Positions 26,571 to 37,747 of a DNA stretch of 64,000 nucleotides are shown here, in pieces. The translations under genes and the position numbers were made by a program. The stretch covers positions 930,001 to 994,000 of the forward strand of contig NZ_JAAWVT010000001.1 in the NCBI RefSeq assembly GCF_012271785.1, written 5' to 3'. Below the pieces are notes generated by a model. It searched no databases and was not told the DNA's origin. It saw nothing but the letters and a program-made list of their open reading frames with translations. The number at the start of each line of letters is the position of its first letter. Position 1 is the first letter of the stretch. The stretch is from Paeniglutamicibacter terrestris. Its GTDB lineage: Bacteria > Actinomycetota > Actinomycetes > Actinomycetales > Micrococcaceae.

Positions 26571-27407
26571 TTAACCGGCGAGCCCGGCGAGCAGGTGGCG
26601 CGGTTTGATCCCCTGCATGCGGCTGGGATCCAGAGCCGCCCGGCGCAACGAGCGAGTGTAGTCGGCGGACGGAGAACAAAGCACCTGGCGGGTTGGCCCC
26701 GACTCAACCAACTCACCGCGGCGCATCACCACAATCTGCTCGCTGATCTCCTGGACCACACCCAGATTGTGCGAGATGAAGAGATACGAAATCCCCGTCT
26801 CCGCCTGAATCTCGGCCAACAGCTGCAGCACCTGGGCCTGCACCGAAACATCCAGCGCACTGGTAGCTTCGTCGCAGACCAGCAGCTCCGGCTTGGAAGC
26901 CAGCGCCCGGGCAATGCCGATGCGTTGGCGCTGGCCGCCGGAGAACTCGTTGGGCCGGCGGTACAGCGCACTGGCGGGAAGACCCACCCGATCCAACAGG
27001 CGTTTAGCCTCCTGGGTTCGCTCGGCGGCCGAGGCCATCTTCTGGATCTTTAATGGCTCCGTAATGATCTCCTCGGCCGTTTGGCGAGGGTCAAGGGAAC
27101 CGTAGGGATCTTGGAAGACCATCTGGAATTTCTTGCGCAGCGGGCGCAGCTCGGATTCGGACAGTGTCAACAGATCGGTGCCGTCCAAATGGATGGATCC
27201 GCTGGTGGGCTTGAGCAGGCGCATGATCGATTTGGCCACGGTTGATTTGCCGCAACCCGATTCACCCACGATCGCCAGTGTCGAGCCGCGAGCCACATCA
27301 AATGACACATCATTCACCGCGCGATAGGGTCCGGTGCGGGTGGAGTACTCCACCACCAGATTCTTCACCGAGAGGAACGGGGCAGCCGTGCTGGTTGTCT
27401 CAGACAT
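26571..27407 (-). CDS. ABC transporter ATP-binding protein (OppF/DppF type)
   Basis: 278 residues from the ATG at 27407 with GGAGG upstream. Walker A GESGCGKST, signature FSGGQRQRIGIARAL and Walker B LLVCDEATSALD are intact. C-terminal oligopeptide-transporter extension ends with GIKPRHLLAGLAG. The start overlaps the preceding ATPase gene by 8 bases. Energises import by the two permeases encoded upstream. Confidence 0.9.
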   Translation of the reverse strand: MSETTSTAAPFLSVKNLVVEYSTRTGPYRAVNDVSFDVARGSTLAIVGESGCGKSTVAKSIMRLLKPTSGSIHLDGTDLLTLSESELRPLRKKFQMVFQDPYGSLDPRQTAEEIITEPLKIQKMASAAERTQEAKRLLDRVGLPASALYRRPNEFSGGQRQRIGIARALASKPELLVCDEATSALDVSVQAQVLQLLAEIQAETGISYLFISHNLGVVQEISEQIVVMRRGELVESGPTRQVLCSPSADYTRSLRRAALDPSRMQGIKPRHLLAGLAG

Positions 27408-28260
27408 GGGATTCCTCCACTGGCATCGATTCGTCCCAGTCTCCCAGACGCGGCACTGCCGCCAGGAGCTTGCGGGTATATTCTTCGGATGGTTCTTCAA
27501 CCACCTGGCGGGCGTCGCCAGATTCAACAAAACGCCCGCGCTGCATCACATGGATGGTGTCGGAGACCAATCGAGCCACCCCGATATCGTGGGTGATCAT
27601 CAAGATTGCGGTGCCCCGAGTTTCTTGGATTTCCAACATCAGATCCAAAATTCCGGCTTGCACCGTGACATCCAGGGCGCTGGTGGGCTCATCGGCCACC
27701 AGCAGCTCGGGTTCACTCGCCAACGCGATGGCGATCAGGACGCGTTGCAGCATGCCACCGGAGAGCTGGTGTGGAAACTTCTTCAGTTGCTCTTCCACCA
27801 ATGGAATGCGCACCTGGCCAAGCAGTTCCATGGCCTTGGCATGGATGGCTTCCTTGCCCTTGACCTTGCCGGTGATCTTGATGGCTTCGCGCAATTGCGA
27901 ACCAATCGAAAGCACCGGACTCAAAGCTGTCATCGGATCCTGCGGGATCAGGGCCAGACCACGGCCGCGGAACTTTTTTATGGTTTGGTGGTCGCTCAAC
28001 ACGTCCTTGCCCTTGATCCGGACCGCACCCGATAGCACCGCCAGATCTCGTGGAAGCAGCTGCAACAGCGCCATGGCAGTGGTGGATTTGCCCGAACCGG
28101 ATTCACCGATAATGGTGACGGTTTCGCCGCGCCCGATGCTGAAACTGACGTTATCAACCGCCTTGAAGACTCCGTTGTCGGTCATCAATTCGACGCTGAG
28201 ATTCTTGACCTCAAGCACCGCGGTATACGGCGGCGCTTCGTTGTGGGTAAGGGTGCTCAT
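27400..28260 (-). CDS. ABC transporter ATP-binding protein (OppD/DppD type)
   Basis: 286 residues. Walker A GESGSGKST, signature LSGGMLQRVLIAIAL and Walker B LLVADEPTSALDVTV are all present. The D-type partner of the following F-type ATPase; the two form the heterodimeric engine of a peptide/opine/glycoside-type importer. It begins two bases after the stop of the DppC-type permease. Confidence 0.9.
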   Translation of the reverse strand: MSTLTHNEAPPYTAVLEVKNLSVELMTDNGVFKAVDNVSFSIGRGETVTIIGESGSGKSTTAMALLQLLPRDLAVLSGAVRIKGKDVLSDHQTIKKFRGRGLALIPQDPMTALSPVLSIGSQLREAIKITGKVKGKEAIHAKAMELLGQVRIPLVEEQLKKFPHQLSGGMLQRVLIAIALASEPELLVADEPTSALDVTVQAGILDLMLEIQETRGTAILMITHDIGVARLVSDTIHVMQRGRFVESGDARQVVEEPSEEYTRKLLAAVPRLGDWDESMPVEESHV

Positions 28261-28262
28261 GT

Positions 28263-29186
28263 TCAGGCTTCCTTCCGGTTCTTGCGGCGGGGACGACCAT
28301 CACGCAGGGCATCTCCGAGGAGGTTGACGCCGACCACCAGAGCCACGATGACTAGGCCGGGCAGGGTCACCATCCACCAGGAGGTGGTGATGTAGTCCTG
28401 ACCGTCGGAGATCAGTCGGCCCCAGGTGGCGAAGGGACGCTGCGGTCCGGCACCCAGGAAGGAGAGCGCGCTTTCGAGCAGTACGGCCTGGGCCAACAAC
28501 AGCAGGATCACCAGGCTCGCCTGCTTGAAGACGTTGGGGATTACGTGCTTGATGAGGATGGAGATCTTGTGCAGACCCAGGGTCTTGGCGGCATCCACAT
28601 AGGGCTTTTCGCGTTCCACCAACACCAGGGAGCGGGTCAGCCGAGCGACCTCAGGCCATTGCGCTATGGCGATGACACCGGTGATCACCGGGATGGATGG
28701 GCCAAAGAGGGCTACGACCAGCAGGAGCATCATCAGCAGCGGCAGCGACATCTGGGCTTCTAAGACGCGAGAGATCAGCACATCTGCCCAGCGTCCGTAG
28801 AAGCCGGCGATCGATCCGAGGATCACACCGATGGCGCCGGAGACCACCACGGCCAACACACCGATCATCAGCGAGGTCTGCCCACCGAACAAAATTCGCG
28901 AGAGCAGATCGCGGCCCAATTGGTCGGTGCCGAAGAGATAACCGTCGCTCAGCGGCGGCAGGCGCCGTGCGCCCAAGTTCTGAGCGTTTGGATCGGCCAG
29001 CGGCAAGAAGTTGGCCAGCACGATCGGTAGGAAAACCAAGAGGGTCAGGATGGCACCTGCCCAGAGCTTGATTTTTGCGGAGCGTGCGCGCCTAGCCGAA
29101 GCCGAAGCCTTGAGCGCCTTCGCGGTCACCGCCGAGGGTGCGCTGGATGTTGCAGGTGCCTGAGTGATGTGCGTTGCGGTGCTCAT
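28263..29186 (-). CDS. ABC transporter permease (DppC/OppC type)
   Basis: 307 residues. An N-terminal Ala/Ser-rich cytosolic segment is followed by the OppC_N helix and five membrane spans. The pattern YLFGTDQLGRDLLSRILFGG is diagnostic of the family, and the ATPase-coupling loop is VEREKPYVDAAKTLG. Its start overlaps the DppB-type gene by 4 bases. Confidence 0.9.
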   Translation of the reverse strand: MSTATHITQAPATSSAPSAVTAKALKASASARRARSAKIKLWAGAILTLLVFLPIVLANFLPLADPNAQNLGARRLPPLSDGYLFGTDQLGRDLLSRILFGGQTSLMIGVLAVVVSGAIGVILGSIAGFYGRWADVLISRVLEAQMSLPLLMMLLLVVALFGPSIPVITGVIAIAQWPEVARLTRSLVLVEREKPYVDAAKTLGLHKISILIKHVIPNVFKQASLVILLLLAQAVLLESALSFLGAGPQRPFATWGRLISDGQDYITTSWWMVTLPGLVIVALVVGVNLLGDALRDGRPRRKNRKEA

Positions 29187-30118
29187 ACCGATGCCGCCTT
29201 TCCGAGTCGAACGCGGGGATCAAGCAAGGGGTAAGCCAGGTCAATGAGCAGCTGAACCGCGACGGCCAGCAGAGCGGTAATGAGCACCGTAGCCTGGATC
29301 AGCGGGTAGTCCCGGGTTTCCAAGGCTCGGACAATCAACGAGCCAACCCCCGGCCAACCGAAAACGACTTCCACCACGACCACACCGTTGAGCATCGCGG
29401 CAAAGCGTGTACCCAGGGCGGTGAATACTGGGATGCCGGCGTTGCCCAGGGCGTAACGCCAGGTCAGCAAGCGTTCAGAGACACCGCGGGAGCGGGCGAT
29501 GGTGAGATAGGGAGAATTGAAGTTGTTGACCATTTCCCGGCGCACCATGCGCGAGATTAATGCGACCTGCAGAATCGCCACCGTAATGGTGGGCAGGACC
29601 AACCCACCCCAGGTTGTGAAGCCGGAAGCGGGGAAGATCGGCAGGACCACCGAGAAGGCGGTCAGTAGCATGATGCCGGTCCAGAAGTCGGGCATGGACT
29701 GCCCGGCAACTGTCAGTACATTGACTCCGACCTCGCCACCGGTGTCGGCACGGCGGGCCATCCACATGCCCAGCGGGATCGCGACCAGCGCGGCCAGCAG
29801 GATCGAGGAAGTGGCCAGGGTCAGCGTGTACGGCAGGCGTTCCATGACCACGGTCATCGCGGGAGCCTGGAAGGAGTAAGAGGTGCCGAGATTGCCGGTG
29901 AAAAGTTGGCCAATGAAGATCAGGTATTGCTGGAAGATCGGGGCGTCGAGGCCGAATTGTTCGCGTACCGCGGCCAACTCTTCGCTGGTGGCCAGCGGGC
30001 CGGCGAAGGCCGCAGCGGGGTCACCGGGTGCGAGGCGGATGAGCAGGAAGACCACCGAGACCGTCAAGAAGACGGTCAGCAGTCCCTGGCCCAGTCGTTT
30101 GGGGAGATAGGTGAGCAT
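29183..30118 (-). CDS. ABC transporter permease (DppB/OppB type)
   Basis: 311 residues from the ATG at 30118, two bases after the binding-protein stop; the longer frame to 30229 lies inside that gene. MLTYLPKRLGQGLLTVFLTV begins the first helix, and the coupling region is TIARSRGVSERLLTWRYAL. Six membrane spans are expected. Works with the DppC-type partner. Confidence 0.9.
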   Translation of the reverse strand: MLTYLPKRLGQGLLTVFLTVSVVFLLIRLAPGDPAAAFAGPLATSEELAAVREQFGLDAPIFQQYLIFIGQLFTGNLGTSYSFQAPAMTVVMERLPYTLTLATSSILLAALVAIPLGMWMARRADTGGEVGVNVLTVAGQSMPDFWTGIMLLTAFSVVLPIFPASGFTTWGGLVLPTITVAILQVALISRMVRREMVNNFNSPYLTIARSRGVSERLLTWRYALGNAGIPVFTALGTRFAAMLNGVVVVEVVFGWPGVGSLIVRALETRDYPLIQATVLITALLAVAVQLLIDLAYPLLDPRVRLGKAASV

Positions 30119-30120
30119 TC

Positions 30121-31698
30121 TCAGGCTTCCAATCCGATGTGGGACAACGGGTATGAGTTGGCCGCTGACAGAGAGAGTGTCTGGACCCGGTTGCGCCGGG
30201 CCAGGATCGATTTGGGCACAAAGGCCCAAGCACAGGGCCAGGTGTCCCAGGCTCCCTGTTGGGCATCCTTGAGGTATACCTCGCGTTTGGCCTCATCAAC
30301 TTCCGCTGCGGCAAGACCGATCTTCGCGGCAACCGCCTTATTGACGTAGCCCTGGTAGGTGTCGCGGGTCTTTTCCTTTTCCGGGGTTCCGGCATACATG
30401 CCCTGCAGCATGGTGATGGCCAATCCGGTGGGGCTGGAGAAGCCGTTTCCGAGCAAATCCCAGTCGCCTTCTTTGCCCTGTCGCCATTGCAGGATGTTTC
30501 CGCCGGGTTCAAATTGCTGCAACTCGGTGCGCACGCCGATGTCCCAGAACATTTGCACCAACGCCTCCATGATGGCGGTATCGGAGGGGAACTCTCCGGT
30601 TTCCCAAATGATCTTGAGTTTTAGGTCGCTGACACCCAAATCTTTGAGCAGTGACTTGGCCTTGGCCGGGTCATAAACAAAGTCACCGGTCTTGGCGTGG
30701 CCAAAGAGGCTGGCGGGCGTGACGCCTTGAGCCTGTTCGACAGAATCGATCAGCACGTCATGCACCAGCGCTTGGCCATCAATGGCAAAGGATAACGCCT
30801 CGCGGACCCGCACATCGCTGAGCGGGTGGGAGGAAGGCTTGCGGAAATTGTAGAAGATCTGATTCATACGCAGAGAGGACGCCGTCTCGATGGTGACACC
30901 CGGCAGACCGCTGAGTTGTTCCATGGAGTTTGGGGAGATCGAGTCGATGACGTCGACCTCACCGCTGCGCAGAGCGATCACGCGGGAGGATTCTTCGGGT
31001 AGGAAGCGCACATTCACGCGCTGGACGGCCGGGGCCGTTCCCCAATACGTTTCGTTGCGCAGCAGCTGGTAGGTGCCAGCGCCGCGGTTAAAGGATTCAA
31101 CGGTATAGGGACCGGTGCCGACACCGGTCTGCAGCTCTTCAGGCTTGTTATCCGCCGCCGGAGTGATCAAGATCAGCGCCATGAGGGCGTCAAGGATGGG
31201 GATCGGTGCCTTGGAGTCAAGATAGAAGCTGCGTTCGTCCAGGGCGGTGATCCTCGGGAATTCTGGGAAGAAGCCTGCAACAAAGGAACCTTGGACCTCG
31301 CGGTACATTTGCAGCGCGGTGGAAACGTCTTTGATTTCTACCGGTCGACCGTCGGAGTAAGTGACCCCCTTGCGCAGTGTGGCCTTCCAGCGCGTCGGAG
31401 AAAGCATCACAAAGGATTCGGCCAGCATGGGGATAGGAGTGATCTCCGGCCCGATGGCCGTCAAGCCTTCACGCACCGCGCGCTGTACCGTGACTGCCGC
31501 ATCAAATTGATTCAGCTTGTTATCCAGCGAGACAAGCGAACGGTTCAGTGCCAGGGTCAGGGTGTCTTCACCGGGCAGGCCGGTGGGACCTGCGCAGGCG
31601 CTGGCGCTTAATCCGATCCCCGCGAAGAGTCCTGCCGCTCCGGCAAGTCGCAGCAATTGCCGACGCGACATGTCGTGGCCAGGGAATGATGCGGTCAT
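30121..31698 (-). CDS. Extracellular solute-binding lipoprotein, family 5
   Basis: 525 residues from the ATG at 31698 (GAGAGG upstream). The N-terminus has a twin-arginine stretch (SRRQLLRLAGAAGLFAG) and a lipobox ending SASAC, so export of the folded lipoprotein by the Tat route is possible. The mature part belongs to the peptide/nickel-binding family 5, which also includes binders of oligosaccharides. It is the first gene of the nine-gene operon, which points to a glycoside- or sugar-acid-containing ligand rather than a peptide. Confidence 0.88.
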   Translation of the reverse strand: MTASFPGHDMSRRQLLRLAGAAGLFAGIGLSASACAGPTGLPGEDTLTLALNRSLVSLDNKLNQFDAAVTVQRAVREGLTAIGPEITPIPMLAESFVMLSPTRWKATLRKGVTYSDGRPVEIKDVSTALQMYREVQGSFVAGFFPEFPRITALDERSFYLDSKAPIPILDALMALILITPAADNKPEELQTGVGTGPYTVESFNRGAGTYQLLRNETYWGTAPAVQRVNVRFLPEESSRVIALRSGEVDVIDSISPNSMEQLSGLPGVTIETASSLRMNQIFYNFRKPSSHPLSDVRVREALSFAIDGQALVHDVLIDSVEQAQGVTPASLFGHAKTGDFVYDPAKAKSLLKDLGVSDLKLKIIWETGEFPSDTAIMEALVQMFWDIGVRTELQQFEPGGNILQWRQGKEGDWDLLGNGFSSPTGLAITMLQGMYAGTPEKEKTRDTYQGYVNKAVAAKIGLAAAEVDEAKREVYLKDAQQGAWDTWPCAWAFVPKSILARRNRVQTLSLSAANSYPLSHIGLEA

Positions 31699-31797
31699 GA
31701 TTGACCTCTCGATTCGTCGTATTGGAGCATCGTTGACCCAACCCATTGGGGCACCTTGCTCTCCTGAGCATTTGTAACTCAGGTCACTCTGTCACGA

Positions 31798-31837
31798 TTG
31801 CGCGTAATGCGCAATACCAATAGCGCGTTTCGCGCAA
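31798..31837. promoter_or_regulatory. Two copies of a 17-bp palindromic site in a divergent promoter region
   Basis: TTGCGCGTAATGCGCAA (31798-31814) and TAGCGCGTTTCGCGCAA (31821-31837) share the pattern TNGCGCGTNNNGCGCAA and are centred 23 bases apart, about two helical turns. They lie between the binding-protein gene (minus) and the kinase-dehydrogenase gene (plus). The DeoR regulator encoded at 34236-35003 is the obvious candidate to bind them, although this is inference. Confidence 0.65.
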
Positions 31838-31911: not shown

Positions 31912-34179
31912 ATGCAGCCAATCGCTAGTGATCCACCGACAACAGCAATGTCCCCGGAGAACCAACAAGTACTTATCTTGGCCGATGACTTCACCGGTGC
32001 CTGCGAGGTGGCCCTGCCCTGGAAATCACTCGGATACGGTGCGGCGATCACACTAGATGCCAGCGCGGTCCGCACCACGCGGGTTCATATCATCGACACC
32101 GATACCCGCGGATTACCTTCCACGCAGGCCGCAACCATCACACGTTCGATATTGGCTTCACATGTGCCCACGGGACTGCTGATCAAAAAGATCGATTCTC
32201 TCTGGCGCGGCAATATTCCTGCCGAGCTTTTGGCGCTGGTCAAGTCGGGTTATCGTTTGGTCATTGCCGGGGCACTGCCGCACCTTCACCGTTCGGTCAG
32301 GGACGGTGCACTGCTAATTCAGGGCATCCCTCTGGCGGCGACGGACGCGTGGAACATCGAAACGGCGGCGCCGCCTGTGCTCGTCAGTGATCTACTTGTT
32401 GGTCTTTCCACTAGGCACCTCCCAATGCCCGGCACCAACGACCAGCAGTGGGAAACACAATTGGACGCGGGCCTCAACAACGCCCAGGTCATCATCATTG
32501 ACTGCGAAACCGAGTCGGATCTGGCCACGATCGCCTCCTCTTGTCTCCAGCGCCTGCCATCGGCATCCACTCCCATTGCACTGGTGGGCACCGGTGCGCT
32601 GAACGCAGCGATCGCCACGGCGTATGCCGCCCTCTTCGTTCCCGATGCCAACGAGAGCGAGAAGACGATATCAAAGTCAACCTCAGTACCTGCCCGCGGG
32701 CAGCACCAACTCTTCGCAGTGGTCGGTTCCGCCTCCGGCCGCAGCGGAGAACAACTTGCCCATGCTCGCAAGGCCGGACTAAGGGTCAGGGAAAATGCAT
32801 CTGATCTAGCGGCCGAACTGCTGGATGGAAACCCCGCCATTCTCGCGGCCCCCGCGACGCCGGGCGATCCCGCGGCGACTCTCACCACGCTGCGTCACAA
32901 CGCTGCCCTGCTCCTGGAAGACCAGCCGTCCGCGGATCTTTTCCTCACCGGTGGTGAAACCGCCAGGGCCATCCTTGATGACCAGAACATCGACATCCTG
33001 TATCCCCTGCTTCAACTCGAACCCGGTGTAGTCATCTGCCGCACCCCGGCGGGGCGACTCGTCGGCACCAAACCCGGCACCTTCGGCAGCACCGGCATCC
33101 TGACCCAATCCCTGAAAACTCTGCGCGAACTGCGCACCACCACACCCCAGGAGCACGATCCCATGACCAAAACATTGCAGGACACCCGCCCCTACATCGC
33201 CGTGACCATGGGCGACGGCGCCGGGGTTGGCCCCGAGGTGACCGTCGGAGCTCTCATCGATGAACGTGCCTACGCCACCAGCCGTCCGGTGGTTATCGGG
33301 GATGCCTATCGGCTGCGTCTGGGCGCCACTGCACTCGGCGCCACGGTGGAGATCGTGGAAATCGAGGCGATCTCCGAGGCCATCTTCATCCCGGGACGCA
33401 TCAATGTCATCGACCCGCATCTGCTGTCCCCCGACCTGCCCTGGGGCAAGGAATCGGCGGAGGCGGGAAACGCCGCTTACCACTACATCCGTATTGCCTG
33501 CGAGCTGGGCATGAAGGGTGAGGTGCAGGGCATCTGTACCGCACCGCTAAACAAGGCGGCGCTGCACAGCGCTGGGCACATCTACCCCGGCCACACCGAA
33601 CTGCTGGCCCACTTCATGGGCATCGAGGAGGTCTCCATGATGCTCTCCACCCCCAAGGTCAAGGTCATCCACGTGACCACCCACATCGGGCTCATTGACG
33701 CCATCAACAAGATCGAACCGGGGCTAGTGGAGCGCACGGTGCGCCGCGGGCACGACGCATTGGTCCGGGCCGGAAATGCCAACCCCAAGATCGGTGTGTG
33801 CGCCATCAATCCGCACGCCGGAGAAAACGGTCTCTTTGGGTACGGCGAAGAGGAAACCAAGATCATTCCCGCGCTGGAAAAATTGCGTGCCGACGGTATC
33901 AATGCGGTAGGTCCGCTTCCTGCAGACACCGCGTTCTTCCTCGCCGGGCGCGGGGACTACGATTTGATTGTGGCGATGTACCACGATCAGGGCCACGGAC
34001 CGGTGAAGGTTTTGGGCATCGAGGCCGGAGTGAATATCACCGTGGGACTACCGGTGATCCGGACCTCGGTTGACCATGGCACCGCCTTCGACATCGCCGG
34101 CACCGGCGTGGTGGAGGTTGGCAGCATGATTGAGGCACTGACGCAGGCGGTCAATCTGGCCTCGGTTCCAGCACTCTGA
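31912..34179 (+). CDS. Fused four-carbon acid sugar kinase and PdxA2-type 4-phospho-threonate/erythronate dehydrogenase
   Basis: 755 residues, preceded by a near-perfect ribosome-binding site TAGGAGGTGA. Residues 1 to about 410 form a DUF1537 kinase: ADDFTGACE, DTDTR, KKIDSLWRG in the N-terminal half and TGGETARA and KPGTFGSTGIL in the nucleotide-binding half. Residues 418-755 form a complete PdxA-like dehydrogenase: VTMGDGAGVGPE and metal-binding histidines in YPGHTELLAHF, VTTHIGL and YHDQGHGPVK. Known two-protein pathways phosphorylate threonate or erythronate and then oxidise C3, with decarboxylation to dihydroxyacetone phosphate. Here both are in one chain. The second part begins with an internal ATG (33163) that keeps AGGAG nine bases upstream, so a separate PdxA2 product may also be made. 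True pyridoxal-pathway PdxA is not implied. Confidence 0.88.
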   Translation: MQPIASDPPTTAMSPENQQVLILADDFTGACEVALPWKSLGYGAAITLDASAVRTTRVHIIDTDTRGLPSTQAATITRSILASHVPTGLLIKKIDSLWRGNIPAELLALVKSGYRLVIAGALPHLHRSVRDGALLIQGIPLAATDAWNIETAAPPVLVSDLLVGLSTRHLPMPGTNDQQWETQLDAGLNNAQVIIIDCETESDLATIASSCLQRLPSASTPIALVGTGALNAAIATAYAALFVPDANESEKTISKSTSVPARGQHQLFAVVGSASGRSGEQLAHARKAGLRVRENASDLAAELLDGNPAILAAPATPGDPAATLTTLRHNAALLLEDQPSADLFLTGGETARAILDDQNIDILYPLLQLEPGVVICRTPAGRLVGTKPGTFGSTGILTQSLKTLRELRTTTPQEHDPMTKTLQDTRPYIAVTMGDGAGVGPEVTVGALIDERAYATSRPVVIGDAYRLRLGATALGATVEIVEIEAISEAIFIPGRINVIDPHLLSPDLPWGKESAEAGNAAYHYIRIACELGMKGEVQGICTAPLNKAALHSAGHIYPGHTELLAHFMGIEEVSMMLSTPKVKVIHVTTHIGLIDAINKIEPGLVERTVRRGHDALVRAGNANPKIGVCAINPHAGENGLFGYGEEETKIIPALEKLRADGINAVGPLPADTAFFLAGRGDYDLIVAMYHDQGHGPVKVLGIEAGVNITVGLPVIRTSVDHGTAFDIAGTGVVEVGSMIEALTQAVNLASVPAL

Positions 34180-34235: not shown

Positions 34236-35003
34236 ATGTCAACAAGTGCCAGGGTGCGCCAGGGACAGATCCTTGAGCTCGCGCACACCAGCGGTCTGGC
34301 AAGCGTCGAGGAACTCTCCGAACGCTTTGACGTGACAGCCTCAACGATCCGGCGTGATCTCACCCGATTGACCTCCGAGGGCAAGATCGCTCGCACCTAC
34401 GGCGGGGCCATGGCCCTGAATGGGCAGGTGGTCGAGTCAACCTTCCGGCAGCGCAATAAGCAAAGCACCGCTGCTAAACGCGCCATCGGGCGACGGGCCC
34501 GCGCCCTGGTAAAACCGGGGCAATCAATCCTGCTCGACTCGGGATCCACCGTCGCGGCGCTGGCCCACGAACTGCGCGATGCCAGCGAGCTTAAGCTCGC
34601 CACCACCTCACTAGTGGTGCTCGATGAACTCGCCGAGGCCCAGGAGATTCACGTTGAATGCATCGGTGGCACGTTGCGGCACAGCAGCGCGGCCTTTGTT
34701 GGACCGTTGGCCGAGTACTGCCTGGAACGAATGAGCTTTGATACCGTCTTCTTGGGCGCCGACGGGGTCACCCCCGAGGCGATTTGCGAGGCGGACATGG
34801 TCCAGACGCGTTTGAAGGAAGTGATGTGTTCGCGTGCCAACACCGTGTATGTGTTGGCCGATTCTTCCAAACTAAACCACACCCCCTTCCACGCCTGGGC
34901 CAGACTGCCCGAGGCGTGGACGCTGATCACCGACGCCGCGGCGAGTGATGCTCAGCTGGAGGCTTTCCGGGCAGCGGGAGTCAAGATCCTCATTGCCCGC
35001 TAG
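34236..35003 (+). CDS. DeoR/GlpR family transcriptional regulator
   Basis: 255 residues with a strong ribosome-binding site (AAAGGAGG). N-terminal HTH with VEELSERFDVTASTIRRDLTRL, then the DeoR sugar-phosphate sensor domain with SILLDSGSTVAAL and a Cys-containing IGGTLRHSSAAFVGP. It follows the kinase fusion gene by 56 bases. Probable repressor of both divergent units, responding to a phosphorylated intermediate. Confidence 0.88.
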   Translation: MSTSARVRQGQILELAHTSGLASVEELSERFDVTASTIRRDLTRLTSEGKIARTYGGAMALNGQVVESTFRQRNKQSTAAKRAIGRRARALVKPGQSILLDSGSTVAALAHELRDASELKLATTSLVVLDELAEAQEIHVECIGGTLRHSSAAFVGPLAEYCLERMSFDTVFLGADGVTPEAICEADMVQTRLKEVMCSRANTVYVLADSSKLNHTPFHAWARLPEAWTLITDAAASDAQLEAFRAAGVKILIAR

Positions 35004-35020: not shown

Positions 35021-35184
35021 TTAATTCGCCCAGAACGGGTAGTCGGTGTAACCGACGGCGCCCTCGGTGTAGAAGGTGCAGGCGTCGGGAACGTTCATAA
35101 AACCTCGAGCGCAGATCCTGGACGAGTTCCCCGGCCGGATCGGCGTTCAGGATGCTCAACGTGGCCACACCAAGTGGTCCAGCC
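35021..35184 (-). pseudogene. Remnant of an Old Yellow Enzyme 3' end, with internal deletion
   Basis: Positions 35021-35097 match 36674-36750, the C-terminal coding end of the intact OYE gene, with about three mismatches in 77 bases. Positions 35101 to about 35184 then match 36909-36992. The 158 bases between are deleted. Translated on the minus strand it still reads LSILNADPAGELVQDLRSRF. The homology is lost after 35184. It lies just before the Fic gene and is a relic of a second OYE copy. Confidence 0.88.
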
Positions 35185-35383: not shown

Positions 35384-36574
35384 ATGAGCATCAACAGCAC
35401 CGCTTGGCCCTCGATCCATTTCGAGGAAGTCCAATGGGATGCGCCCGCCGACGCCAGCGCTTCCCGTCGTCAGCGGCTTCGGGCCCGCGGTCCATACCAA
35501 GCTGCCATCGTGCCGCCAATCGCGGACGCCAGCCCCGTCATCAGCACCCGGGTCCTCGCTCTGGCCGAGGAAGCAACTATTGACATGGTCCGTTTCGACC
35601 GGGATCTGGGCGAGAGCGCCGCCCCCTTCGCGGCACTGCTACTGCGTAGCGAGTCCGTAGCCAGCTCCGAAATCGAGAATCTCACCGCGGGAGCCAAGAA
35701 AATCGCGCTGGCCCAACTGGGAGACCGATCCAGCGCAAACGCATCACTGATCGCCTCCAATGTCTCGGCCATGAACGCTGCCATAACACTGTCCGACGAC
35801 CTGTCCCTGCCCAATATTCTGTCCATGCACCGAGCCCTGCTTCAGTCCTCGCACCCGCAGATCGCCGGTGAATTGCGCAAAGCACCGGTGTGGATTGGCG
35901 GCAATTCCCCGCACACCGCCAGCTTCGTTCCACCACGCCACGAAGGGATCGAAACCGCCTTGGTGGATCTGGTCGACTTCATGCGCCGCGATGACCTGCC
36001 GATCTTGACTCAGGTCGCCATCGCCCACGCTCACTTCGAGACAATCCACCCCTTCGCTGACGGTAACGGTCGGACCGGCAGGGCCCTGGTCGGCGCGCTG
36101 TTGAGAAACAAGGGAGTGACCCAGAAAGTCACCATCCCCGTCTCATCCGGGCTGCTGGCCAACACCGCTTCATACTTCGAGGCTCTGGGCGCGTACCAAC
36201 AGGGAGACCCTGAACCGATCGCCGAAATGTTCGCCGAATCAACTTTTGCTGCCACGGAGAATGGCAGACTCCTGGCCGCAAGTATCAACCAAATCCAGTT
36301 CGACATTCATGCCGCACTTCCGCAGAAGCCCAGCGACAGCATGCGCGCAAGCATTCGCTGTCTAGTACGGGAACCAGCACTGAGCGCAGAATCTCTCATT
36401 GAGATGACGGGCCAATCCTCAAGCTCCGCCTACCGCAACATCACTGTCCTGGAGTCCATCGGTGTACTCAAAGCCAGCAGCCACATCAAGGGCCGCAGAA
36501 TATGGATCGCACCGGCCGTCATCGAAGCCCTGGACGAGTTTTCGCTGCGCGCCGGAAAGCGCACCCGGTCCTAA
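35384..36574 (+). CDS. Fic-domain protein with C-terminal winged HTH
   Basis: 396 residues. The Fic motif HPFADGNGRTGR (residues 222-233) is complete, so AMP transfer to a target hydroxyl is likely. An inhibitory helix motif SSEIEN (94-99) fits the S/T-x-x-x-E-G/N consensus, making this a self-inhibited class II Fic protein. The C-terminus (about 330-390, SSSSAYRNITVLESIGVLKASS) is a winged HTH. There is no separate antitoxin gene. The gene stands between two direct repeats derived from the OYE 3' end. Its role may be stress- or phage-related or regulatory; the target is unknown. Confidence 0.88.
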   Translation: MSINSTAWPSIHFEEVQWDAPADASASRRQRLRARGPYQAAIVPPIADASPVISTRVLALAEEATIDMVRFDRDLGESAAPFAALLLRSESVASSEIENLTAGAKKIALAQLGDRSSANASLIASNVSAMNAAITLSDDLSLPNILSMHRALLQSSHPQIAGELRKAPVWIGGNSPHTASFVPPRHEGIETALVDLVDFMRRDDLPILTQVAIAHAHFETIHPFADGNGRTGRALVGALLRNKGVTQKVTIPVSSGLLANTASYFEALGAYQQGDPEPIAEMFAESTFAATENGRLLAASINQIQFDIHAALPQKPSDSMRASIRCLVREPALSAESLIEMTGQSSSSAYRNITVLESIGVLKASSHIKGRRIWIAPAVIEALDEFSLRAGKRTRS

Positions 36575-36673: not shown

Positions 36674-37747
36674 TTAGTTCGCCCAGAACGGGTAGTCGGT
36701 GTAACCGACGGCGCCCTCGGTGTAGAAGGTGGAGGCGTCGGGAACATTCAGTGGCAATTCTTCCTTCCAGCGGCGCACGAGGTCGGGGTTGGCGATGGCC
36801 GGACGGCCGACCACCACGGCTTCGCCCCAACCATTGGCGGCAACAGCCTCCGCTTCCTCAAGTGTGGTGATGCTCTGGAAACCGGTGTTCAGCAGTACCG
36901 GTCCACCGAACCTCGAGCGCAGATCCTGGACGAGTTCCCCGGCCGGATCGGCGTTCAGGATGCTCAGTGCGGCCAGACCCAGAGGTGCGATCCCATCGAT
37001 GAGAGCACCGTACGTGGCGGCAGCATCCGCGGTATCGGTTTCCAGCGCACTCTGAATATTGTGCTGCGGGGAGATGCGCAAGCCCGTTTTTCCTGCGCCA
37101 ATAGCTTCAGCCACGGCGGTGACCACCTCGATCACCAGACGCGCCCGGTTCTGCGGGGATCCACCATATCCGTCGGTGCGGGTGTTGGAGCTGGGGGCCA
37201 GGAATTCGTGCAGCAGGTAACCGTTGGCGCCGTGCAGTTCAACACCGTCAAACCCTGCGGCGATCGCGTTGCGAGATCCTTGCACAAACTCTTCGATAAT
37301 GCCCGGCAGTTCCGCCTCGGTGAGTGCGTGCGGAACCGGGTAGTCGTACTTGCCGGTGTAGGTGCGGGTGACACCGTCCACCGCGATGGCACTGGGGCCC
37401 ACCACGATGTCTTGCCCGGTGGTTTCGGTGTGGGTGACTCGGCCGGCGTGCATCACCTGAGCAACAATGAGTCCGCCTTCGGCATGGACGGCGTCGGTGA
37501 CGCGCTTCCATCCGGCGATCTGTTCGTCGGTGACAAGTCCCGGCTGGCGGACAAAGCCCTGACCGACCGCACTGGGGTAAACACCTTCACTGACAATCAG
37601 GCCCATCGATGCACGCTGGCGGTAGTACTCAACCACATCGTCGTTAGGCACGCCGTCTATACGGGAGCGCGAACGAGTCAGTGGCGCCATGATGACACGG
37701 TTGGAAAGCTGAAGGTCACCGAGGGTGAGTGGGGAAAACAGGTCCAT
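36674..37747 (-). CDS. Old Yellow Enzyme-family NADH:flavin oxidoreductase (N-ethylmaleimide reductase-like)
   Basis: 357-residue FMN-dependent TIM barrel. MDLFSPLTLGDLQLSNRVIMAPLTRSR at the start, the substrate-binding His in the GFDGVELHGANGYLLHEFLA strand, and C-terminal EAVVVGRPAIANPDLV (FMN phosphate site) are all intact. Such enzymes reduce activated C=C bonds and nitro compounds with NAD(P)H, often in electrophile detoxification. Two broken copies of the same gene are in the window (1-690 and 35021-35184). Confidence 0.92.
   Translation of the reverse strand: MDLFSPLTLGDLQLSNRVIMAPLTRSRSRIDGVPNDDVVEYYRQRASMGLIVSEGVYPSAVGQGFVRQPGLVTDEQIAGWKRVTDAVHAEGGLIVAQVMHAGRVTHTETTGQDIVVGPSAIAVDGVTRTYTGKYDYPVPHALTEAELPGIIEEFVQGSRNAIAAGFDGVELHGANGYLLHEFLAPSSNTRTDGYGGSPQNRARLVIEVVTAVAEAIGAGKTGLRISPQHNIQSALETDTADAAATYGALIDGIAPLGLAALSILNADPAGELVQDLRSRFGGPVLLNTGFQSITTLEEAEAVAANGWGEAVVVGRPAIANPDLVRRWKEELPLNVPDASTFYTEGAVGYTDYPFWAN

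Follow-up and report, generated by a model that had tools for sequence, protein, structure and literature searches.

The DUF1537 kinases include DtnK, DerK and OtnK, and the role of the DUF1537 and PdxA2 families in the use of D-threonate and D-erythronate reportedly goes back to Zhang et al. 2016 and Thiaville et al. 2016. A fusion of a DUF1537 gene to a gene of the PLP pathway is listed among the clues that led to the kinase function (PMC4921024 Table 4, citing Thiaville et al. 2016). In Arabidopsis, the LTD protein is a fusion of LtnD, OtnK and OtnC (PMC12540250). Erythronate genes of Brucella are governed by the DeoR-type regulator VdtR (PMC10580937). Outside this metabolism, Cas11 is produced by internal in-frame translation of cas8/cas10d (PMC11899642).

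The locus described here lies in a window of 64,000 nucleotides (the whole stretch of DNA that was analysed) from Paeniglutamicibacter terrestris. Its central gene, like the fusion listed in PMC4921024, joins DUF1537 to a PLP-pathway gene, presumably pdxA in the listed case. That listing dates from 2016, so the fusion in itself is no novelty; kinase-PdxA fusions are known and widespread. The part of PMC4921024 that lists the fusion does not describe recurrence, frame-merging indels or a retained internal start. Arabidopsis LTD shares a DUF1537 kinase fused to pathway neighbours. However, it is a plant protein whose partners are a dehydrogenase and an aldolase, with no PdxA. Cas11 is alike in that the C-terminal part exists as a separate gene or as an internally started product, depending on the lineage. 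Cas11 is a structural subunit with an experimentally shown start, whereas the short product of the window gene, a predicted one, would be a complete metabolic enzyme. What is new is that the fusion arose repeatedly by frame merging and that there is evidence of selection keeping the internal start. A literature search found no direct precedent for a fusion with a retained internal start.

Our best overall explanation, to which we give a probability of roughly 70%, is that this is a two-product gene, which probably makes a bifunctional kinase-PdxA2 protein and a stand-alone PdxA2 of 338 aa, with a DeoR regulator and a conserved, divergently oriented ABC importer next to it. A single transcription unit would encode two successive steps of four-carbon sugar-acid catabolism. 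In vivo, the DUF1537 kinase of the 755-aa protein would phosphorylate an imported C4 sugar acid of the D-threonate or D-erythronate class, and the PdxA2-type dehydrogenase/decarboxylase part would then oxidise and decarboxylate the 4-phosphate to dihydroxyacetone phosphate. Ribosomes would independently initiate at an internal AGGAG-N9-ATG (33163) to give the stand-alone PdxA2. Because of this proposed initiation, the dehydrogenase would exceed the kinase, and the excess may benefit the cell. The features of the gene are as follows.

31912-34179, + strand: fused DUF1537 kinase and PdxA2-type dehydrogenase gene, 755 aa, uninterrupted frame; a second species of the genus (G307) shares this fused frame
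31972-32610, + strand: SBD_N, sugar-binding N-terminal domain, residues 21-233 (Pfam 97.8 bits, cut-off 25)
32893-33096, + strand: match to NBD_C, nucleotide-binding C-terminal domain, residues 328-395 (Pfam 43.6 bits, cut-off 28.3)
33142-33177, + strand: flexible inter-domain linker, residues 411-422 (pLDDT <50 in the AlphaFold2 model)
33149-33153, + strand: internal Shine-Dalgarno (SD) sequence AGGAG, inside codons CAG GAG
33163-33165, + strand: internal start codon ATG, in frame, 9 nt after AGGAG
33163-34179, + strand: predicted stand-alone PdxA2 product, 338 codons and a stop
33164-33166, + strand: out-of-frame TGA, which looks like a fossil of the kinase stop from an ancestral ATGA overlap

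The original prediction had read this frame as a DUF1537 kinase followed by a complete PdxA, and Pfam matches above cut-off confirm both identities in one intact frame. SBD_N and NBD_C both score above the gathering cut-offs, which places the N-terminal part among the DUF1537 four-carbon acid sugar kinases. The NBD_C match is limited to profile positions 98-166 and contains a GGET motif at residues 347-350. Despite this partial match, DUF1537 structures align over the whole length of the kinase, both with the AlphaFold model and in a profile search. The PdxA domain (residues 457-746) is complete and belongs to the PdxA family by PF04166 (331.9 bits, Pfam cut-off 27) and by TIGR00557 (340.3 bits, also above cut-off). 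Among 45 fused relatives, D62, R66, K93, D95, S96, R99 and G100 of SBD_N and His561, His591, His635 and His691 of the PdxA part are invariant. The domains and the catalytic His/Asp residues of the fused protein are intact.

In an AlphaFold2 model built with 45 sequences (mean pLDDT 81, pTM 0.57), the kinase is confidently modelled and the linker is disordered. The PdxA domain has low confidence near residues 577-600 and 690-730, and the placement of the domains relative to each other is unreliable. Foldseek matched the DUF1537 part to 4xfr, 5dmh and 3dqq, and the PdxA part to 4jqp, 2hi1 and 6e85. The PdxA part is about 64% identical to 4jqp, the PdxA-like structure of Burkholderia phymatum. 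With DtnK, DerK and OtnK the kinase shares both Pfam domains, the GGET motif and the fold of 4xfm, 4xfr, 5dmh and 3dqq. It differs from them by its fusion to PdxA2 and by its distance from the characterised kinases.

The NCBIfam equivalog models scored below their curated cut-offs. These were the D-threonate kinase DtnK (NF047819, 90.8 bits, cut-off 450), the 3-oxo-tetronate kinase OtnK (NF043035, 26.9 bits, cut-off 350) and the D-threonate-4-phosphate dehydrogenase PdxA2 (NF002891, 329.8 bits, cut-off 583). For this reason we assign no specific substrate, and the DUF1537 and PdxA2 families point to the D-threonate or D-erythronate class. NF002891 is the best-scoring subfamily model for the PdxA part, which is here the C-terminal domain of a fusion; a PdxA2-like function is proposed because of the fusion or adjacency to a DUF1537 kinase, not because of the equivalog score. 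The fused gene is both the only DUF1537 gene and the only PdxA gene of the genome. A role of PdxA in vitamin B6 synthesis by the PdxJ/DXP-dependent pathway is ruled out, as the genome has PdxS and lacks PdxJ. The same gene content makes a catabolic, PdxA2-type role the natural reading of this domain. At the species level the gene is patchy, with just 2 carriers among the 15 genomes of the genus.

Relatives were collected from the genus, family, order and phylum and from GTDB contigs. They comprise 174 loci with a PdxA of the same kind, a sample biased towards close homologues of the fused query. The kinase is in the same frame in 68 loci, is an adjacent upstream gene in 99, and is neither in 7. 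The search for the same domain order that the original prediction had called for thus found many further fusions. Its statement that the two enzymes usually occur as two proteins stands as far as the 99 split loci go, but not for the approximately 40% of loci found in this PdxA subfamily that are fused. Fused members occur in Micrococcaceae, Microbacteriaceae, Nocardiaceae, Streptomyces, Nonomuraea, Klenkia, Burkholderiaceae, Salinicola and Acidobacteria. The inspected matches from other classes of the phylum (L151-L177) are split or have no kinase neighbour. Among plasmid records, 25 have a place covering most of the query, and some of these are annotated as two genes; they bring nothing further on the mechanism. 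In Frondihabitans sucicola (L031, 5667-8314), the kinase half runs across three frames and the PdxA half is intact; this is either a broken kinase or the result of sequencing errors.

The fused state has changed many times. A FastTree tree of the PdxA domain has 19 changes between fused and split, 17 of them forced by well-supported branches, and the kinase-domain tree has 17, of which 14 are so forced. A quick IQ-TREE tree with 98 rows gave 14 changes. Fused genes have also split again, since on both the PdxA and the kinase trees split L130 (genus g8) is nested in the fused clade of the window gene, and split L133 in a fused Arthrobacter/Pseudarthrobacter clade.

The junction retains traces of how the frames merged. 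In 62 of the 99 split pairs, the kinase stop and the pdxA start overlap by 4 bp in ATGA, the very position of the out-of-frame TGA, and in 70 the pdxA start is in the frame that such an overlap implies. ATGA or GTGA is retained at the internal start of 62 of the 68 fused genes, with the TGA out of frame; as a control, about 23% of other in-frame ATGs are followed by A. Furthermore, when the sister pairs L108/L130, L126/L133 and L027/L038 are aligned, a net indel of one base close to the junction separates the fused from the split member and decides whether the kinase tail shares the pdxA frame. Taken one at a time, singletons (L038, L130 and L133 are examples) could hide a sequencing error. 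The loss of a stop codon, which the original prediction gave as the origin of the fusion, is ruled out: the TGA is still present within ATGA at 33163-33166, and the split sisters use another frame. Instead, the persisting TGA and the sister indels indicate fusion by indels in the kinase tail. In the proposed course, a small indel in the unconstrained tail of an ATGA-overlapping pair would bring the kinase into register with pdxA and leave the old stop out of frame. Such merging has recurred, and there are reversions. We lean, by a little, towards a general form of this model, in which the pair repeatedly switches between overlapping separate genes and a fusion through frame-merging indels, selection keeps the downstream start, and the fused state is a stable two-product gene in many bacterial lineages.

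The case for a working internal start comes from the family. The AGGAG nine bases before the in-frame ATG, as originally described, is present, and an in-frame start at the junction is kept in 68 of 68 fused genes (61 ATG, 7 GTG). Each of the seven non-ATG cases, L032 and L048 included, has GTG at the junction on inspection, so that the start Met is replaced solely by Val encoded GTG and by no other codon. In 66 of the 68, an SD core is found 4-11 nt before this start, versus 161 of 677 control in-frame ATGs (24%) of the same genes. Picking the best start within the linker introduces a small bias into this comparison; a window-based control is independent of that choice. In this control, ATG or GTG with AGGA, GGAG or GAGG at proper spacing occurs in the 14 codons before the PdxA domain in 60 of the 68 fused genes, and in 8.2% of 48,947 other in-frame windows. 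A looser measure, the duplex energy, separates internal starts (-6.4 kcal/mol) from controls (-5.3 kcal/mol) more poorly than the spacing-aware motif test. The conserved start codon and properly spaced SD across fused homologues are the sequence pattern of a functional internal start.

Codon conservation within clades adds to this. Clade A, comprising the window gene, its congener and the sister genus, has identity down to 62%, and its linker codons vary except for CAG GAG (9 of 9 genes) and the start codon, which is once GTG. A single codon is kept in only 2 of 23 invariant-Glu columns across the nine genes. The SD GGA is invariant in 20 of 20 genes of clade C and 6 of 6 of clade D, where it is the sole invariant GGA among 51 and 46 invariant-Gly columns, respectively. 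In all 68 fused genes, the mRNA folds more weakly around the start than in the rest of the gene. In 20 of 20 clade representatives this local folding is also weaker than in synonymous recodings (mean z 1.58), versus a mean z of -0.41 at other ATGs. The window gene alone is near neutral in this test (z 0.16) and its SD lies at the 16th percentile of synonymous versions, which is why the argument is made on the family. The SD shift per gene is weak (median quantile 0.29), so that codon conservation across clades was used. The pooled p-values are overstated, as related sequences are not independent.

The original prediction called the internal start vestigial, and it is possible, though unlikely, that the site is an undecayed remnant that was needed before fusion and that the full-length protein alone matters. 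Fusions are recurrent and some are young (L027 and L038 are one indel apart), and the synonymous signal of the window gene alone is not strong, as such a remnant would have it. Some of the conservation could also date from split phases if lineages switch often; clade A is fused throughout apart from the nested L130. However, old fused clades, in which pairs share as little as 61-62% identity, have diverged in the linker and lost most agreement at synonymous sites, whereas their SD codons and start have stayed invariant at the nucleotide level; GTG is the sole replacement of ATG in the 68 genes. Together with the weak mRNA structure, this favours selection on an initiation site over a vestige, and the suggested extra PdxA2 gains support as a prediction from the same conservation. 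Initiation at a site within a frame that is itself being translated can be weak.

It has been proposed that ribosomes are slowed by SD-like sites within genes. The purine motif, placed exactly at the domain boundary, might accordingly be a translational pause that lets the kinase fold before PdxA emerges, rather than an initiation site. We regard this as improbable: a pause needs neither a start codon at fixed spacing nor the substitution of GTG for ATG, it gives no reason to expect weak mRNA structure at the codon, and split sisters truly begin pdxA with the same motif and start. That a sequencing or assembly error joined two adjacent genes is barely conceivable, even with split versions one base different and with single loci, split or fused, that could each hide an error. 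The second species, in a one-contig assembly and at 85% identity, has the same frame and linker, further relatives share the linker register, and 66 more loci are fused; a hidden stop is thus very unlikely and the fusion is real. The two-product reading remains the one that we prefer.

The surroundings of the gene suggest how its substrate would enter the cell and how its expression may be controlled.

34236-35003, + strand: DeoR-family regulator (HTH_DeoR and DeoRC), downstream; it adjoins the gene in most actinobacterial homologous loci
30121-31746, - strand: solute-binding protein SBP_bac_5 (family 5), divergent, upstream
29183-30229, - strand: ABC permease 1; the listed ORF start may be upstream of the true one
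28263-29186, - strand: ABC permease 2
27400-28260, - strand: ABC ATPase 1
26571-27530, - strand: ABC ATPase 2; the true start is probably further in
31797-31815: perfect palindrome ATTGCGCGTAATGCGCAAT, candidate DeoR operator, at a position conserved in the genus and sister genus
31823-31837: second operator-like site GCGCGTTTCGCGCAA, 23 bp from ATTGCGCGTAATGCGCAAT

Most of the homologous loci of Actinobacteria, whether fused or split, retain the five-gene ABC set and deoR near the gene. Since this synteny is kept around the kinase-pdxA gene, the ABC system is a likely importer, which implies that a C4 sugar acid or a derivative is taken up by a peptide-type system. Both candidate operators are GCGC-centred palindromes in the divergent promoter region and are conserved in the genus and sister genus; the 23-bp spacing of GCGCAA recurs in most loci of clade A and in several outside it. 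Further downstream, 35021-35178 repeats the end of an old-yellow-enzyme-like gene in truncated and internally deleted form; it matches 36674-36986 in stretches that are 92-96% identical. Between this copy and the intact gene lies a Fic-family gene (35384-36574, + strand), whose product scores 203.8 bits against SoFic, a PADLOC model for anti-phage defence. The old-yellow-enzyme-like gene directly follows deoR in the congener G307 (L178), and the Fic gene therefore looks inserted, with a partial duplication.

A fused gene is read as a single protein. If the internal start works, an entire enzyme goes missing from such annotation, and two-product genes can lie hidden behind 'Rosetta stone' fusions. 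The family is a natural experiment with many switches between fused and split states, some of them one base apart, in which the cost and benefit of fusing consecutive enzymes and of an extra second enzyme are measurable. If the model is true, it would offer a general route by which ATGA-overlapping operon genes become fusions and keep the separate product. In Actinobacteria, the locus also ties this pathway to a DeoR regulator and an ABC importer of the peptide type.
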